This document shows, in pieces, positions 1,353-57,229 of a DNA stretch of 64,000 nucleotides. The stretch spans positions 27,077 through 91,076 of IMG/VR virus record IMGVR_UViG_3300008262_002626. The stretch is one strand, 5' to 3'. A program made the position numbers and the translations under genes. Under the pieces are notes generated by a model that saw nothing but the letters and a program-made list of their open reading frames with translations, did no database searches and was not told where the DNA came from. The DNA is from a virus. Within the stretch, counting starts at the first letter, position 1. Every line of letters begins with the position of its first letter.

Positions 1353-2008
1353 TAGTAATTTCCTGATGCAAGAACAATCTTGCAAATATGTTCTAATCGT
1401 TCTATATGTTCGTAGGCACGCCAAGGACTAGTATCGATAGCAACTACACCATGTCCTTTGATGCCTACTATATCAAATTTAATATTGCCATCACGATCTA
1501 ATTGTAACTTCTCGTGACATTGATTTCCTAGTTCTTCGGAAATTGGGGGTACGTCACCTACATTCGGAGCAACTTTAGTGTACCGACTAAGCTCTGGAAA
1601 ATATTGGCAGAGAGTATTCAATTCGATTCCGGCATGCATAGCCGCAACAGTATAAGTTGGATGCACATGAATCACTACCCGAACGTCGTCCTTGTGTTGT
1701 CCCATTTCTTTTTGTAATCCAAAATGTAATGGGATCTCTCCAGATGGTCTTAGTTTGGCGCTGATATCAGTATATTGTATATCTTCCCAACTGTAGTTAA
1801 ATGCGGCACTACCTACACCACTATTAATAGTTCTCCAAATTTTAATTTTCTTGAACTGATCAGGTTGTAGTGTTTGCTTACGGACACCGCTAGGTGTAAT
1901 ATAAAAGTGATCACGGTCGTGGTGACGAATACTTACATTACCATCACGACTGGTAATCCAATTACGTTGATAAGCATCTTTAAGAACTTCACAAATAGTT
2001 TCTAACAT
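1352..2008 (-). CDS. Class II aldolase/adducin-family protein
   Basis: A 218-residue protein of the fuculose-phosphate aldolase / ribulose-5-phosphate 4-epimerase / MtnB superfamily. It shows the phosphate-binding segments SRDGNVSIR and TPSGV, a catalytic glutamate in PSGEIPLH, the HVH zinc pair in VIHVHPTYTVA and a third histidine in GIKGHGVVA, so it looks catalytically complete. It sits between nrdA and nrdB with one-base overlaps on both sides and so is co-translated with ribonucleotide reductase. The substrate cannot be told from the sequence. Sugar-phosphate or methylthioribulose-phosphate chemistry feeding nucleotide or S-adenosylmethionine metabolism is possible. Confidence 0.88.
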   Translation of the reverse strand: MLETICEVLKDAYQRNWITSRDGNVSIRHHDRDHFYITPSGVRKQTLQPDQFKKIKIWRTINSGVGSAAFNYSWEDIQYTDISAKLRPSGEIPLHFGLQKEMGQHKDDVRVVIHVHPTYTVAAMHAGIELNTLCQYFPELSRYTKVAPNVGDVPPISEELGNQCHEKLQLDRDGNIKFDIVGIKGHGVVAIDTSPWRAYEHIERLEHICKIVLASGNY

Positions 2009-4356
2009 TATAACTTACACGCCTCACAATCTTCTTCTACCATCTCGACATCGACACTATGCCCATTCATTCCAGCTGTGTGGTATCCGTTAACTTCCGA
2101 TGCTACTTCGATTGCTTTACTGCCTGCTTTATTAATTAGGCTGTAGTAGAAAGTCTTAATACCCCATAGCTGTGCTTGCATTAAGTTCTTAGCAATCAGT
2201 GTAGTTGGTACTTTGCGCTCTGGGAAGTGTGCAGGATTATAGAATGTGTTTGTTGAGATACTTTGATCAACATAGACTTGGAGAACAGCCGCTGTTTTTA
2301 AATATCCTACACAGTCAGTTTGATCCCACATCAATTGATACTTGTTCTTTAGTTTATGATAATCCGGAACAACTTGTGTGAATGATCCTGCCTTAGACTC
2401 TTTAGTACTAATAAGGCTCATCGGCATTTCTATTCCATTTGTACTATTAATAACAACACTACTAGACTCAACTGGAGCAATAGCCATAAGTGTAGCATTT
2501 CGTACGCCATGTTCCTTCATCTCCTTACGTAGTGGTTCCCAGTCAAGCTCTGGTTTAAAGTTTGCTAGTTCGTTTACACCCTTAGCACGGATTTCCCATG
2601 GAAATATACCTTGACCATAGCGTGTCTTATCACTGTCTAAACATTTTCCACGTTCTTTAGCTAGTTCAACCGTTGCTTCTGTTAGATAATAGGCTTGATG
2701 CTCCATCCAGCTCTTAACTTCTGCTAGTGCATCTTTCTCACCATACTTATGACCTCGCTTGGCATGCCAGTAGGCTAGATTAGTTACGCCAATACCCAGT
2801 GGTTGAATTTCGTCGTTACTTAATTTAGATTGGATGCTAAGAAAGTCTTGGTAATCCAATATATTGCAAAGACTACGCTGAAGTATCCTGCAAGCACGAC
2901 GCATATCTTCGGGATTACGGAACGCTCCCCAGTTGATGCTGCCAAGAGTACATAAAGCGATGCGGCCGGAAGGGTCATCGAGGCGCTTAAAACTACGAGT
3001 AGGTAAAAGTATTTCACAGCATAAGTTTGACTGATAGATAGTGTGGTACTCAGGATCAAATGGCCCTTGGTTCATGACATTATCAATGAACACCAGGTAG
3101 ATGCGACCTGTATCAGTCCTCTCCTTTAAAATACCACCTTTAAATACATCTTCGGCATTCATCGACTTCTTACGAAGGCCGGCCTGCTTCTCATATTTGA
3201 CATACAATTTTTCGAATAATTCGGTGTCTCTGTAAAAGGCTTCGTACAAGTCAGGCACTTCATTAGGATCAAAAAACGTAATGTTTTCTTTATTTTTGAA
3301 ACGGCGCCAAAAGAATGCTGATAGCACCACTCCGTAGTCCATGTGACGCACACGAGTTTCTTCAGTTCCTTGATTGTTCTTAAGGACAATGAGGTCGTCA
3401 AACTGATGATGCCAAATAGGATAAAAGACTGTAGCACTAGCGTTACGTATTCCACCTTGACTGCAACTCCTTAAATCTCCAAACCATTTCTTTAGAAATG
3501 GGATCATACCAGTATGCATGATCTCACCACCTCTGATGGGGCTACCTAGTGGACGTAGACGCCCAATCTCCAAACCAATGCCAGCACGTTTGCTGGCATA
3601 CTTGGCCATCATCTCACCAGAAGCAAATATGCTATCCAGATCGTCGTCACTGCGGATAAGAACACAACTAGAAAACTGTTTAGTAGGAGTCCCGAGGCCA
3701 GCCAACACAGGTGTAGCAAGAGTAAACAGACCATCTGAAGCACAGTTGTAGTACTCTTTGATGTAACGCATACGGGCCGCATTAGGTTCCTCTTTATGGA
3801 ATACAGTCGCGGCCGCAACCATATAACGAACCTGTGGTGTTTCATAAATTTCCTTTGTCGCACGATTGCGTACCAAATATTTTTCAATCAACTGCTCAAT
3901 AGCGGCGTACGAGTATGTTTCGTCTTTTTCGTGATCGATAAACTCGTCCATCTTATTCCAATCATCTTCTGAATACCAGTTTAGCAACTCCGGAGTATAT
4001 AGACCAATGTCTACATTTCGTTTGACAATTTCGTATAGACGAGGAACTTGATAGTCTCCGTACACATCCTTTCGCAACATACTAAGACGTTGTTTGCCTG
4101 CTACATATTGATAATTGGTGTGCCCTACATCTGGATTATGTTCTACATCAATAAGATCAACGATTGCTCTAAGAGTTATTTCGTCGATTTCTCTAGTAGT
4201 AATTCCATCATAGAAATGTGGTTGACTCTTAATTTCTATCATTGATTGGCTAACGTCGGCAATACCACTGCATACTTTCGCTACCTGAGCTTGCCATTTT
4301 TCTACTGCTAGTGGTTCACGCTTTCCGGATCTTTTAATTACTGTAATGTTATTCAT
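2008..4356 (-). CDS. nrdA: Ribonucleotide reductase class Ia, alpha subunit
   Basis: The 782-residue catalytic subunit that reduces ribonucleoside diphosphates. It has an N-terminal ATP-cone-like region (residues 1-100), the active-site cysteine segment FSSCVLI, the NLCCEI radical-site segment and the partner cysteine in ALCTLGSINWG. It ends in CEACKL, a CxxC tail expected to exchange with glutaredoxin. It is first in a minus-strand operon with aldolase, nrdB and glutaredoxin. The length is close to the bacterial and T4 proteins (about 750-760), so it appears intact. Confidence 0.97.
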   Translation of the reverse strand: MNNITVIKRSGKREPLAVEKWQAQVAKVCSGIADVSQSMIEIKSQPHFYDGITTREIDEITLRAIVDLIDVEHNPDVGHTNYQYVAGKQRLSMLRKDVYGDYQVPRLYEIVKRNVDIGLYTPELLNWYSEDDWNKMDEFIDHEKDETYSYAAIEQLIEKYLVRNRATKEIYETPQVRYMVAAATVFHKEEPNAARMRYIKEYYNCASDGLFTLATPVLAGLGTPTKQFSSCVLIRSDDDLDSIFASGEMMAKYASKRAGIGLEIGRLRPLGSPIRGGEIMHTGMIPFLKKWFGDLRSCSQGGIRNASATVFYPIWHHQFDDLIVLKNNQGTEETRVRHMDYGVVLSAFFWRRFKNKENITFFDPNEVPDLYEAFYRDTELFEKLYVKYEKQAGLRKKSMNAEDVFKGGILKERTDTGRIYLVFIDNVMNQGPFDPEYHTIYQSNLCCEILLPTRSFKRLDDPSGRIALCTLGSINWGAFRNPEDMRRACRILQRSLCNILDYQDFLSIQSKLSNDEIQPLGIGVTNLAYWHAKRGHKYGEKDALAEVKSWMEHQAYYLTEATVELAKERGKCLDSDKTRYGQGIFPWEIRAKGVNELANFKPELDWEPLRKEMKEHGVRNATLMAIAPVESSSVVINSTNGIEMPMSLISTKESKAGSFTQVVPDYHKLKNKYQLMWDQTDCVGYLKTAAVLQVYVDQSISTNTFYNPAHFPERKVPTTLIAKNLMQAQLWGIKTFYYSLINKAGSKAIEVASEVNGYHTAGMNGHSVDVEMVEEDCEACKL

Positions 4357-42550: not shown

Positions 42551-42579
42551 TGTTTTTTAAGTAGCAAAAGGAGCGATAA

Positions 42580-43159: not shown

Positions 43160-43168
43160 GGAGCGACA

Positions 43169-44377: not shown

Positions 44378-44400
44378 ATACACATACTAAGGAGAGCGAC

Positions 44401-45677: not shown

Positions 45678-45825
45678 ATTTTGGATGGTAACTGAAGACC
45701 CGATGTATGACGAAGACGGGCAACTGGTAGACGAGGACTACATTGACCCAGATGAGTGGGACGAAGCATTTCCTCCGGAAGAGATCGACGAAACCTACGA
45801 TCCTTTTGAAACTGTTAATAGCTAG
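45670..45825 (+). CDS. 51-residue highly acidic protein
   Basis: MTKFWMVTEDPMYDEDGQLV..., about one third Asp/Glu. It starts within the end of the preceding gene. DNA mimicry or inhibition of a host factor is possible but speculative. The anti-SD hairpin begins at its stop codon. Confidence 0.6.
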   Translation: MTKFWMVTEDPMYDEDGQLVDEDYIDPDEWDEAFPPEEIDETYDPFETVNS

Positions 45826-45837
45826 TTCGCTCCTAGC
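45821..45837 (+). ncRNA. Hairpin displaying anti-Shine-Dalgarno loop
   Basis: GCTAG (45821-45825) / CTAGC (45833-45837) closing a loop TTCGCTC, complementary to the GAGCGAA part of the array SD. Sits between the acidic gene and its terminator. See findings. Confidence 0.55.
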
Positions 45838-45843
45838 ACGGCC

Positions 45844-45873
45844 AGACCCCCTCCGACATGGGGGTCTTTTTTT
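45844..45873 (+). terminator. Intrinsic terminator
   Basis: 8-bp stem AGACCCCC/GGGGGTCT, 8-base loop, then seven T residues. Confidence 0.9.
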
Positions 45874-46166: not shown

Positions 46167-46196
46167 ATAGGCTAAGTTAAACAAAAGGAGCGACAG

Positions 46197-46485: not shown

Positions 46486-46515
46486 TGATACATACTTAAA
46501 CACAAGGAGCGACTT

Positions 46516-48104: not shown

Positions 48105-48181
48105 GGGCCTATAGCTCAGTTGGTTAGAGCAGTGGACTCATAATCCATTGGTCCCTGGTTCGAACCCAGGTGGGCCCACCA
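48105..48181 (+). tRNA. tRNA with anticodon CAT (Ile2 or Met)
   Basis: 77-nt cloverleaf with encoded CCA: acceptor GGGCCTA/TGGGCCC, D-arm GCTC...GAGC, anticodon stem GTGGA/TCCAT with loop CTCATAA, T-arm CCTGG TTCGAAC CCAGG. No initiator hallmarks (no C1-A72, no three G-C pairs at the anticodon stem base). Overall sequence resembles alphaproteobacterial lysidine-type tRNA-Ile as I recall, so tRNA-Ile(CAT) is favoured over elongator Met. Confidence 0.9.
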
Positions 48182-48186
48182 ACATT

Positions 48187-48263
48187 CTGCCCTTAGTTCA
48201 GCTGGATAGAACAACGGCCTTCTAAGCCGTAGGTCAGAGGTTCGAGTCCTCTAGGGCAGGCCA
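48187..48263 (+). tRNA. tRNA-Arg (anticodon TCT)
   Basis: 77-nt cloverleaf with encoded CCA: acceptor CTGCCCT/AGGGCAG, D-arm GTTC...GAAC, anticodon stem ACGGC/GCCGT with loop CTTCTAA, T-arm AGAGG TTCGAGT CCTCT. Reads AGA/AGG codons. Confidence 0.93.
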
Positions 48264-49896: not shown

Positions 49897-50085
49897 ATGA
49901 GCAACCAATGGCGAGTAGGTTTTACTGTATATTTGAACGATGCTATGACCGAAACACAATCAGATCTAACCAATCTGGAGACTGTGGTCACAGCATTCCA
50001 ACCCAGCCAAGCAGAAGCTATGGTCCGGGCACAGTATAACAATAGAGCACATATTTGGTACTGTCGCCCAGCCGAATGGGCTTGA
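49897..50085 (+). CDS. Small conserved protein
   Basis: A 62-residue product started at MSNQWRVGFTVYLNDAMTE behind AAGGAGCAG. Contains a helix PSQAEAMVRAQYNNRAHIWY. Function unknown. Confidence 0.6.
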   Translation: MSNQWRVGFTVYLNDAMTETQSDLTNLETVVTAFQPSQAEAMVRAQYNNRAHIWYCRPAEWA

Positions 50086-50110
50086 CAACTAGACCAAGCG
50101 ATCTTATAAT
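50082..50110 (+). promoter_or_regulatory. Sigma-70-type early promoter
   Basis: TTGACA overlapping the preceding stop, 17-bp spacer, TATAAT. Drives the AAA+ gene and the hairpin-rich 3' RNA. Confidence 0.85.
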
Positions 50111-50138
50111 TAATGTTTTACACACAGGAGCGATTTAA

Positions 50139-51023
50139 ATGGCAAGAGTTATGACCCTAGCGGCAGTTACTGAAAAGACTCGTTCAAAGCGTTCAGGCAC
50201 CAGTGAGAGCCTGGAGATGGAGCCTATTGAGAAAGTACTAGTAGAGTCAGATGAAGAAATCATGAACCGTTTGGCTGCTCGTTTCGAAATCCTTATGGAG
50301 ATGACACGTGCCGTTAAGAAGGGCGATGTTCGTGCAATGATCGTATCAGGCCCTCCGGGTGTGGGCAAATCGTTTGGTGTTGAGCAGGTCTTGTCAAAGC
50401 ATGATGTGTTTGCAGATGTAGCCAACGATACTAAACTTAAGAAGTACGAAGTGGTCAAGGGTGCTATGAGTGCCATTGGTTTGTACAAGAAGCTCTACGA
50501 GTTCTCAGATCGCAAGTGTATCCTAGTGTTCGATGACTGTGACTCAGTACTGCTTGATGACCTTAGCCTTAACATCTTGAAAGCCGCTCTGGACAGCTCT
50601 AAGAAGCGTACCATCCACTGGAACACAGACAGTCGATTGCTACGCACAGAAGGTGTGCCCAATTCATTCGAGTTCAAGGGCGGTGCTATCTTTATTACCA
50701 ACATCAAGTTCGATAATGTACGCTCAAAGAAACTGCGTGATCACTTGGAAGCACTGGAGTCACGTTGCCACTACTTGGACTTGACTATTGATACTGCACG
50801 TGAGAAGCTCCTGCGTATCCGTCAGGTAATCCGTGACTGCGGCATGCTTGATGACTATGGGTTTGATGACACAGTCAAAGCACAGGTCGTAGACTTTATT
50901 GAGCGTAACCAAAAGCGTATGCGCGAGCTGAGCCTGCGCATGGTGCTCAAGGTAGCAGATCTAGCTAAGAGCATGCCACACAAGTGGGAAGCTGTAGCAG
51001 AAGTAACTTGCATGAAGCACTAA
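50139..51023 (+). CDS. AAA+ ATPase
   Basis: A 294-residue P-loop ATPase: Walker A GPPGVGKSFG (residues about 71-80), Walker B ILVFDDCDS (about 127), sensor-like FITNIKF (about 187) and a C-terminal lid with an arginine-rich RELSLRMVLKVADLAK. A stand-alone AAA+ family frequent in phages, possibly remodelling a protein or DNA-protein complex. SD CAGGAGCGATTTAA. Its 3' UTR carries the anti-SD hairpins. Confidence 0.85.
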   Translation: MARVMTLAAVTEKTRSKRSGTSESLEMEPIEKVLVESDEEIMNRLAARFEILMEMTRAVKKGDVRAMIVSGPPGVGKSFGVEQVLSKHDVFADVANDTKLKKYEVVKGAMSAIGLYKKLYEFSDRKCILVFDDCDSVLLDDLSLNILKAALDSSKKRTIHWNTDSRLLRTEGVPNSFEFKGGAIFITNIKFDNVRSKKLRDHLEALESRCHYLDLTIDTAREKLLRIRQVIRDCGMLDDYGFDDTVKAQVVDFIERNQKRMRELSLRMVLKVADLAKSMPHKWEAVAEVTCMKH

Positions 51024-51040: not shown

Positions 51041-51154
51041 GACAGGCCCAACGATTCGCTCCCGGTAAGCCTGTCAAGACCGAACCCGATTCGCTCCCGG
51101 TATTAGGTCATGTTGTGCCCCAGGATTCCTCCCCGGTTTCCTGGGGTTTTTTTT
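51041..51154 (+). ncRNA. Candidate anti-Shine-Dalgarno regulatory RNA (three hairpins)
   Basis: Three tandem hairpins downstream of the AAA+ stop. Hairpin 1 stem GACAGGC/GCCTGTC (51041-51047/51069-51075), loop with TTCGCTCC (51055-51062). Hairpin 2 stem GACC/GGTC, extendable (51078-51084/51103-51109), loop with TTCGCTCC (51090-51097). Hairpin 3 stem CCCCAGGA/TCCTGGGG (51118-51125/51139-51146), loop with the degenerate TTCCTCCCCGG, followed by eight T residues. TTCGCTCC is the exact complement of GGAGCGAA, the ribosome-binding element of about sixteen early genes. Function is inferred. Confidence 0.6.
51118..51154 (+). terminator. Intrinsic terminator
   Basis: 8-bp stem CCCCAGGA/TCCTGGGG with a 13-base loop followed by TTTTTTTT. 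Ends the early plus-strand block. Confidence 0.93.
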
Positions 51155-51459
51155 GGCCGGAAGGTCGGTCGGTGGTGGTCGGTGGTCTCTCTGGGGGGTC
51201 GGGGTTATATTATAAAAACTGTTGCTATTTTACAACAGTGGCAAGCAAATTTTGGTGGGTATAGACGCAAAATCACCATCATGAATCTATAAGTACTTCT
51301 TTTTAATTTTTCGTACGCTAGAAATTTGCGGAGCAAGGGACCATTTCATGGGCCCAAAAACGACCCCACTAGAACCCTAAGTACTTCTCAAATTTTTTAC
51401 GCGACCAAATTTTTTTATCCTGTAGACCCATTTGGCATATATAGTAAAAGGACACTATC
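51155..51459. other. Non-coding region after the early block
   Basis: About 300 bases without a gene. Opens with GGTCGG-type G-rich repeats (51165-51205). Then a 7-bp hairpin ACTGTTG/CAACAGT (51218-51239) and two copies of AAGTACTTCT (51291-51300, 51379-51388), each followed by an AT-rich T-run. No promoter with a good -35 was seen for the next gene. Confidence 0.5.
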
Positions 51460-51615
51460 ATGCTCATGCTCTACTTTACCGTCGCTGGTTTAATCTTAAC
51501 TCTATGGTTTAACTCAGCCATTCTAGGACTGGCTGTTGCTGGTCTAATTCTAGTGTGGATCGCAGTTATAGCTTGGCGTACACGCAACGAGCCCCACGAT
51601 CCTTCACTGTACTAA
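51460..51615 (+). CDS. 51-residue membrane protein
   Basis: MLMLYFTVAGLILTLWFNSA ..., two hydrophobic stretches (residues 5-24 and 24-39) and a polar tail TRNEPHDPSLY. First of a three-gene plus-strand run. Ribosome-binding site AAAAGGA, 8 bases upstream. Confidence 0.6.
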   Translation: MLMLYFTVAGLILTLWFNSAILGLAVAGLILVWIAVIAWRTRNEPHDPSLY

Positions 51616-55762: not shown

Positions 55763-57229
55763 TTATGAGAAAATCCTAGTTTTATATAGCCGTTCAAATC
55801 TTCGGGCGTCATTACTGTCGTTGATCATGGGCTCGCCACGGATGTTTAGGCTGGTGTTCAGTAGCATGGGACAGCCGGTACGTTTGAACCAAAGTTCTAG
55901 AAGCTGTCTAAAAGGTGATCCATCATTGGGCACAGTCTGCACACGACTAGTTCCGTCCTTGTGTACGATAGCAGGATACTTATCAGGTTCACGGCACAGG
56001 GATACAGTCTGCATGTATCTGCTGTTTTCCCAAGCATAGGGCAGTCTAAAATACAAGTGTGCCTGTTCCTCTAATATAGCAGGACCAAAAGGACGAAAGT
56101 CTTCTCGATGCTTGATCTTGTTGACTAGGTCTTTGATGTCAGGATCACGAGGATCAGCTAGTAAACTCCTATTGCCCAGAGCACGTGGGCCAAATTCAGC
56201 AGGGCCACGGGCTACACCTGCTATTCGATATTTTTCTAACCAATTGACTATGTCTTCATTAGACTCTCTATAGCCCATGTCGAAGCCCAGGTAGGGTGTA
56301 AACTTGTCGTTGTCTATACGCCATTCTGGATGTACTGCTAGAACTGCGCCTAGACTGCTACCAGCATCACCGGGATTAGGCATGATCCACACGCTGTCAA
56401 AATGTTTGCCGATTAGTCTGTTGGCTAGGCAGTTAAGAGCACAGCCGCCCATGAGCACTAGATTTTTACTGCCAGTTAGTTCTTTGGCTAGACTTAGTGC
56501 TGATTCAAAATAAGTTTCGTAGACTAATTGTGTAGCAGATGCTAGGTCAAAACTGTCTTTGACTGTTAGATCCGGAGCCCAATCAGTGCAACCTCGATGC
56601 AGATTCTTTTTAAATCTAAATGAGTCGTAGTCATTGACAAAGTCTTGTTCTATACGAAGTTTTAGTCGATCATCACCGAACGCACTCATACCCATTAAGA
56701 TGTATTCGTCTTCGTTAGGTTTTAGTCCTACACGTTGGGTCATTGCTGAATAAAACAAGCCCACTGAGTTAGGAAACCACTTGCTGTAGACTTTTTCTAA
56801 AGTCTGTCCCTTGGCTTTCCATATGGTCAATGTTTCAAACTCACCTATAGCATCTATGACTACTACTGCCGCATGATCATAGGGACTAGTATAGTACCCG
56901 CCAGCGGCATGTGCATGATGATGACTGACCTGCTTAACAGGTGCATGTATCTCATATCTAGCCATATATATGCCAAGATCGTTATCTCTGGCACGCCATC
57001 CTTGTCCTGCAAAAAACTGTCTTAGTGTTTTTAGTCTTGTGTTTTCATACCATACTACTTCGTTAGGATTACCCCAATGTTTGGCATAGTGTACTAGTTC
57101 TTTACAAAGGTCTCGCTCGTTTTTAACTTTAGTAAAACGTTCGCTGTGACTGGCAAATACTAGTTGTCCTTCTTTGAATACCGATATAGCGGCATCGTGG
57201 CTGTTAGCTGATATTCCCCAAGTAATCAT
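55763..57229 (-). CDS. Carbamoyltransferase (NodU/CmcH-like)
   Basis: A 488-residue protein with the TobZ/NodU carbamoyltransferase fold: N-terminal HDAAISVF, HHHAHAAGGYYTSPYDH, LMGGCALNC and the C-terminal GPAEFGPRALGNRSLL. It transfers carbamoyl groups from carbamoyl phosphate to an alcohol or nucleotide/sugar. Phage homologues are associated with nucleobase or glycan modification. Directly follows the small gene at 57226. Confidence 0.93.
   Translation of the reverse strand: MITWGISANSHDAAISVFKEGQLVFASHSERFTKVKNERDLCKELVHYAKHWGNPNEVVWYENTRLKTLRQFFAGQGWRARDNDLGIYMARYEIHAPVKQVSHHHAHAAGGYYTSPYDHAAVVVIDAIGEFETLTIWKAKGQTLEKVYSKWFPNSVGLFYSAMTQRVGLKPNEDEYILMGMSAFGDDRLKLRIEQDFVNDYDSFRFKKNLHRGCTDWAPDLTVKDSFDLASATQLVYETYFESALSLAKELTGSKNLVLMGGCALNCLANRLIGKHFDSVWIMPNPGDAGSSLGAVLAVHPEWRIDNDKFTPYLGFDMGYRESNEDIVNWLEKYRIAGVARGPAEFGPRALGNRSLLADPRDPDIKDLVNKIKHREDFRPFGPAILEEQAHLYFRLPYAWENSRYMQTVSLCREPDKYPAIVHKDGTSRVQTVPNDGSPFRQLLELWFKRTGCPMLLNTSLNIRGEPMINDSNDARRFERLYKTRIFS

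Follow-up and report, generated by a model that had tools for sequence, protein, structure and literature searches.

Tandem hairpins in the 3' untranslated region of a phage AAA+ gene: a candidate anti-Shine-Dalgarno RNA directed at early genes

What is the role of a row of hairpins that closes a phage transcription unit and holds, in its loops, the complement of the ribosome-binding sequence used by the phage's own early genes? Such a row begins 18 bases downstream of the stop codon of an AAA+ ATPase gene in the 64,000-nucleotide stretch of viral DNA analysed here (hereafter the window; coordinates are collected in Table 1). The initial annotation had described three consecutive loops of this kind and had proposed that the RNA pairs with many early ribosome-binding sites and blocks translation, either as a switch or as a sponge.

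The minimum-free-energy and centroid folds agree on three hairpins in series (z of -2.5 versus shuffles), as annotated. The first two display the sequence in question: TTCGCTCC is found at 51055-51062 and 51090-51097, exactly where it had been placed, and the anti-SD bases of both hairpins are predicted to be unpaired with a probability of 0.80-1.00 (0.93-1.0 for the loop of hairpin 1). Hairpin 3 is not equivalent to them, its loop containing a degenerate copy, ATTCCTCCC, at 51125-51133 that is partly paired. The annotation of this last hairpin as a terminator is borne out by CCCCAGG/CCTGGGG followed by T8; it alone has the features of an intrinsic terminator, a G+C-rich hairpin and then a U run, and the U run is absent after hairpins 1 and 2. 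The complementarity to the early ribosome-binding element also proved exact, TTCGCTCC being the perfect complement of GGAGCGAA. In the 64-kb window, TTCGCTCC was counted 14 times against 1.05 expected from shuffles (shuffle maximum 4), and 11 of the 14 TTCGCTCC/GGAGCGAA occurrences are GGAGCGAA ahead of plus-strand starts. A coding origin of the element is unlikely, since lengths, frames and stems vary freely among relatives. A scan with Rfam 15 returned no family at the gathering score except two tRNAs, the other matches being weak and to unrelated families.

The AAA+ gene that carries the element in its 3'UTR is annotated as nrdC.10 in relatives. Its consensus promoter is likely to serve the element RNA as well; no promoter belonging to the element itself was found, and none that is good lies nearer than 50082..50110. 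Strong sigma-70 promoters on the plus strand number 19 in the window, and every one of them lies within 40.0-50.1 kb, in most cases immediately 5' of a small gene whose leader is short; we read this promoter-rich stretch as the early region. When start codons were picked by rule and an SD was required, 16 early plus-strand genes were counted with GGAGCGA before the start codon, in agreement with the figure of about sixteen given earlier, and 11 of the 16 have the full GGAGCGAA. The early leaders have AAGGAGCGA(A) in common and are otherwise divergent in sequence. Genes of the minus strand (ribonucleotide reductase, virion proteins, DnaB helicase and others) have GGAA as their SD, or GGAG without CGA, and the matching SD is confined to the early block beside the RNA. 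Of the 26 early leaders, 16 are predicted to pair with the loop at energies between -12.3 and -13.3 kcal/mol, while none of the 29 minus-strand (late) leaders is predicted to reach -11 kcal/mol or below. For the same 16 early leaders, the 16S anti-SD is predicted to contribute only -6.5 to -8.5 kcal/mol. Loop pairing and 16S anti-SD pairing both use GGAG and are thus mutually exclusive. Three further early genes have a variant SD, GGAGAGCGA, at 44391, 45918 and 48590, with weaker loop pairing (about -9.8 kcal/mol). The early block also contains a pair of neighbouring tRNA genes, for Met(CAT) and Arg(TCT), at 48105-48263.

Table 1. Positions of the hairpins, early Shine-Dalgarno (SD) sites and other features in the window
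Feature	Position	Strand	Remarks
Ribonucleotide reductase large subunit gene	2008-4356	-	
Early SD GGAGCGAA	40106..40113	+	
Early SD GGAGCGAA	40497..40504	+	
Early SD GGAGCGAA	41259..41266	+	
Early SD GGAGCGAA	42243..42250	+	
Early SD GGAGCGA	42570..42576	+	
Early SD GGAGCGAA	42971..42978	+	
Early SD GGAGCGA	43160..43166	+	
Early SD GGAGCGAA	43849..43856	+	
Early SD GGAGCGAA	44703..44710	+	
Early SD GGAGCGAA	44989..44996	+	
Second-site anti-SD hairpin GCTA[GTTCGCTCC]TAGC	45821..45837	+	overlaps stop codon
Terminator 3' of second-site hairpin	45844..45873	+	
Early SD GGAGCGA	46187..46193	+	
Early SD GGAGCGA	46506..46512	+	
Early SD GGAGCGAA	48353..48360	+	
Early SD GGAGCGAA	48970..48977	+	
Early SD GGAGCGAA	49535..49542	+	
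AAA+ gene promoter TTGACA-17-TATAAT	50082..50110	+	consensus
AAA+ gene SD	50127..50133	+	GGAGCGA (GGAGCGATTT); self-target of loop
AAA+ ATPase gene	50139..51023	+	PHROG 1250, Pfam AAA, NrdC.10-like; 3'UTR holds element
Hairpin 1	51041..51075	+	outer stem GACAGGC/GCCTGTC, inner CG/CG; loop ATTCGCTCC 51054-51062
Hairpin 2	51078..51109	+	outer stem GACC/GGTC, inner CCG/CGG; loop ATTCGCTCC 51089-51097
Hairpin 3 and intrinsic terminator	51118..51154	+	CCCCAGG/CCTGGGG and T8; hairpin proper 51118-51146
Nol-like carbamoyltransferase gene	55763-57229	-	

A search with the AAA+ protein led to 80 fragmentary contigs of a large uncultivated phage group (70-88% identity), and in 80 out of 80 the element is present just 3' of the gene: the first 330 bases contain one or more ATTCGCTCC hairpins, in most cases two. 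Most relatives have two hairpins in total, and the perfect loop sits in the terminator hairpin. The loops were surveyed by requiring stems and allowing up to three loop mismatches, which yielded 91 distinct hairpins; the loop is exact in 87 of these, reads AATCGCTCC in 3 and is unrelated in 1. Since the survey tolerated three mismatches, this invariance is not an artefact of the search. In AATCGCTCC the altered base is the one facing the final A of GGAGCGAA, and among the extension bases it is this A that is least conserved in the leaders. The stems, on the other hand, are freely rewritten, with closing pairs such as CCG/CGG, GTG/CAC and CTG/CAG, among others. In a flank-swap test on 66 dissimilar hairpins, the outer helix had a mean length of 8.0 bp, compared to 3.8 after exchange of the 3' flanks (z = 24; the highest mean among 2000 exchanges was 4.5). 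An alignment of hairpin 1 from 20 sequences has 100% of its cells paired, 51 of them compensatory, and a covariation score of 0.87, against 0.03-0.17 with slid partners; sliding the partners by one to three columns left 17-44% pairing. The covariation analysis that the initial annotation had proposed therefore gave stems that covary (20-sequence alignment) around a loop that is kept (91-hairpin survey), the opposite of the pattern, non-covarying stems with freely varying loops, that the annotation itself had set against its proposal. The element is a distinct, phage-borne RNA family with a well-supported structure and without a matching Rfam entry.

Among isolated phages, neither the region nor an idealised element had a DNA match. 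Two of them have a related AAA+ protein: in PA5oct no ATTCGCTCC hairpin was seen 3' of the gene, and in RcRudolph the next gene starts within 50 bases of it. The 21-base hairpin core had no match in the bacterial genomes of 84,980 species. In many relatives (L004, L013, L015, L017 and L020), a second recurring hairpin with a core of roughly AACGCCAACAAGGCAA and variable stems lies between anti-SD hairpins 1 and 2; it is possibly a protein-binding site.

The element and the extended SD also go together from phage to phage. GGAGCGA accounts for 397 of the 962 distinct GGAG starts in the 80 element-positive loci (277 of the 397 continue with A), but for 3 of 66 in 15 element-negative sister loci, a difference whose Fisher P of 4e-11 ignores the shared descent of the loci and overstates the number of independent events. 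Within the element-positive loci, GGAGCGA is found at 339 of the 555 starts that have a promoter immediately 5', compared to 58 of the 407 that have none. Several records, 106-148 kb long, have nearly all their GGAGCGA starts gathered in a single block of about 10 kb, in the same orientation as the element, and this block ends at, or adjoins, the element; three sister records that lack the element have 0, 0 and 3 such starts. One 61.6-kb record (G014) counts against RNA-SD pairing, as it has four GGAGCGA...ATG matches but lacks ATTCGCTCC. Loop and SD are both nearly constant, so that compensatory change between them is not observable. A candidate for such a co-change was the sister phage L246 (193.7-kb record G001), which is devoid of the element and has GGAGCAC as the SD in 7 of its 20 GGAG starts. 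It was not borne out: of the 37 complementary GTGCTCC sites, 30 were inspected and none of these lies in a hairpin of this kind. The L246 bias in favour of GGAGCAC, for which no complementary hairpin was found, means that an extended SD alone is no proof of an RNA partner.

Copies of the loop are not restricted to the AAA+ gene. The window contains a fourth one, absent from the initial annotation, in the GTTCGCTCC hairpin at the second site, and this GCTA...TAGC hairpin is found in several relatives too. Elsewhere in relatives, loop hairpins lie 3' of the stop codons of other genes, usually right before a terminator; one class is situated about 600-940 bases 3' of the AAA+ gene and another has the form TGCCTAA..CCG[loop]CGG. 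In a sister subgroup, several phages have two loop sites, separated by several kilobases and with GGAGCGA starts close by. At least 120 stretches of viral DNA contain the 15-base core CCGATTCGCTCCCGG, part of these being chance matches. Reverse-strand CCGGGAGCGAATCGG sequences before ATG/GTG in other phages were not counted as mRNA targets, because most of these fragments have no sense loop and the 15-base pattern yields many chance matches. In some other phages a hairpin, CCG[GGAGCGAAT]CGG, presents the SD GGAGCGAAT itself in its loop, right before ATG/GTG (L108, L110, L111 and L130; L092, L161 and L164). Four of these hairpins follow a TAAATA late-promoter-like box, and three precede an endonuclease VII-like gene.

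Given the invariant loops, the covarying stems and the predicted preference of the loop for early leaders, a block acting in trans is the best reading, and the element is probably a 3'UTR-derived anti-Shine-Dalgarno RNA that represses the phage early genes. From the sequence features described above we infer that it is transcribed and processed, that it pairs in the cell, and in which direction and when it acts. The RNA would probably be made within the AAA+ mRNA, as its 3' portion: transcription from the promoter at 50082 would run for about 1 kb, to 51154, and the 3' end may be cut free of the message. Two, sometimes three, hairpins would hold the 9-base loop RUUCGCUCC open, and the intrinsic terminator would then end the early transcription unit. 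Each loop would pair over 7-8 bases with GGAGCGA(A), the SD of about 16 early genes including the AAA+ gene, and the duplex would hide the bases that the ribosome binds, repressing translation. As the RNA builds up with early transcription, it would exert a delayed negative feedback on early protein synthesis, that of its own gene included, and late genes would escape, having no CGA after GGAG. Of the roles initially suggested, that of a sponge appears less likely than that of a repressor. We are also inclined, with some reserve, to see the extended SD of the early genes and the self-encoded tandem-hairpin RNA as the private address code of a widespread phage group, through which the early regulon would be shut in one step.

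Other readings of the same features have to be weighed. One could imagine a device acting only in cis, where the loops pair with the SD of their own transcript (the leader of the AAA+ gene or of the operon), the mRNA is looped and that message alone is regulated. In its favour are the constant placement of the element, in a 3'UTR and ahead of a terminator, and the GGAGCGA that serves as SD of the AAA+ gene. Such a device is unlikely, since the SD recurs in front of many early genes that have promoters of their own, a single target would not call for two or more identical loops, and the hairpin is found at the ends of other genes in relatives. The RNA could also be aimed at the host: a loop complementary to GGAG would partly pair with many host SDs, and helix 24 of 16S rRNA reads GGGGAGCGAA in many bacteria, so that pairing with host mRNAs or with helix 24 would inhibit host translation. 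Helix 24, however, is folded inside the ribosome, and the GCGAA part of the complementarity fits the phage's own early SDs, themselves rare in relatives without the element; a host target is very unlikely. It is quite unlikely, too, that pairing protects or activates the early mRNAs. Shielding of GGAG from a RegB-like nuclease is conceivable, since RegB of T4 cleaves the translation initiation regions of early messages at GGAG (PMC3014915), but the SD itself lies under the duplex. A search for RegA/RegB homologues in 21 related records gave no match; control genomes gave none either.

Two readings do without any pairing. An invariant loop on variable stems would equally suit a protein ligand, for instance a phage coat protein or repressor, the complementarity to the SD being a coincidence; this is highly improbable in view of the exact 8-base match to the phage's own early SD and of the association of loop and SD across phages. 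That the row consists of ordinary tandem terminators resembling the SD complement by chance deserves next to no credence: the last hairpin is a real terminator, but the upstream ones lack a U run, and the covariation together with the invariance of the loop has already refuted this explanation.

The closest likeness to the repressor RNA proposed here is with NfeR1, of the alpha-r14 family of alpha-rhizobia, which has three anti-SD hairpins of redundant function and silences mRNAs by way of their ribosome-binding sites (PMC10746234). The repressive sign that we assign to the phage RNA is deduced from the covering of the SD, as in NfeR1. Both have several hairpins with differing stems and an ultraconserved unpaired anti-SD motif (PMC10746234). 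However, the NfeR1 motif, CCUCCUCCC, is a general anti-SD, whereas the phage RNA shows UUCGCUCC, fitted to the extended early SD, and NfeR1 is a stand-alone bacterial sRNA, while the phage RNA is phage-borne and located in a 3'UTR. The alpha-r14 motif is not the phage loop, which is ATTCGCTCC (87) or AATCGCTCC (3) in 90 of 91 hairpins. With another motif, another host and no Rfam match (Rfam 15 may hold no alpha-r14 model), the phage RNA was not filed under NfeR1/alpha-r14. The cyanobacterial RNAs Yfr1 and Yfr10 also have a conserved unpaired motif that pairs with mRNAs and contains UCCU; it is single-stranded between two stem-loops in Yfr1 and, like that of the phage element, in a hairpin loop in Yfr10 (PMC6778093). 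The phage motif thus differs in placement from that of Yfr1, and the cyanobacterial RNAs are cellular, with a different, single-copy motif and broad host targets.

Among phages, T4 offers a parallel in function, with RegB directed at GGAG SDs and RegA repressing about 30 mRNAs (PMC3014915). The task proposed for the element is the same, the inactivation of many early messages at their translation initiation regions (PMC3014915), but it is carried out by proteins in T4 and would be carried out by an RNA here. As an address code, the system would do with an RNA what T4 does with RegA and RegB, and this RNA would be supplied by the 3' ends of the early transcripts themselves. The lambda OOP and P22 sar RNAs (2025 review of phage sRNAs, PMC12197685) are likewise phage-encoded and act on phage mRNAs by base pairing. 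Each acts on a single message, whereas the element would reach a whole regulon through a common SD code. The passages of that review located by keyword show no RNA of the anti-SD tandem-hairpin kind, and a literature text search for GGAGCGAA gave nothing on phage translation among the matches listed. Known trans-acting phage RNAs mostly address one or a few messages each; a regulon-wide RNA fitted to a phage-specific SD extension would, if real, be a new timing device in the phage life cycle. It would account for the CGA(A) that is common after GGAG in early genes, and would provide a ready orthogonal SD/anti-SD pair for studying the joint switching of many genes.

Beyond the terminator, the window has a non-coding stretch, 51200-51460, that appears conserved in relatives. 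It contains an ACTGTTG...CAACAGT hairpin, AAAATCACC, and TAAGTACTTCT repeated at 51290 and 51378, and is a possible origin or control region.
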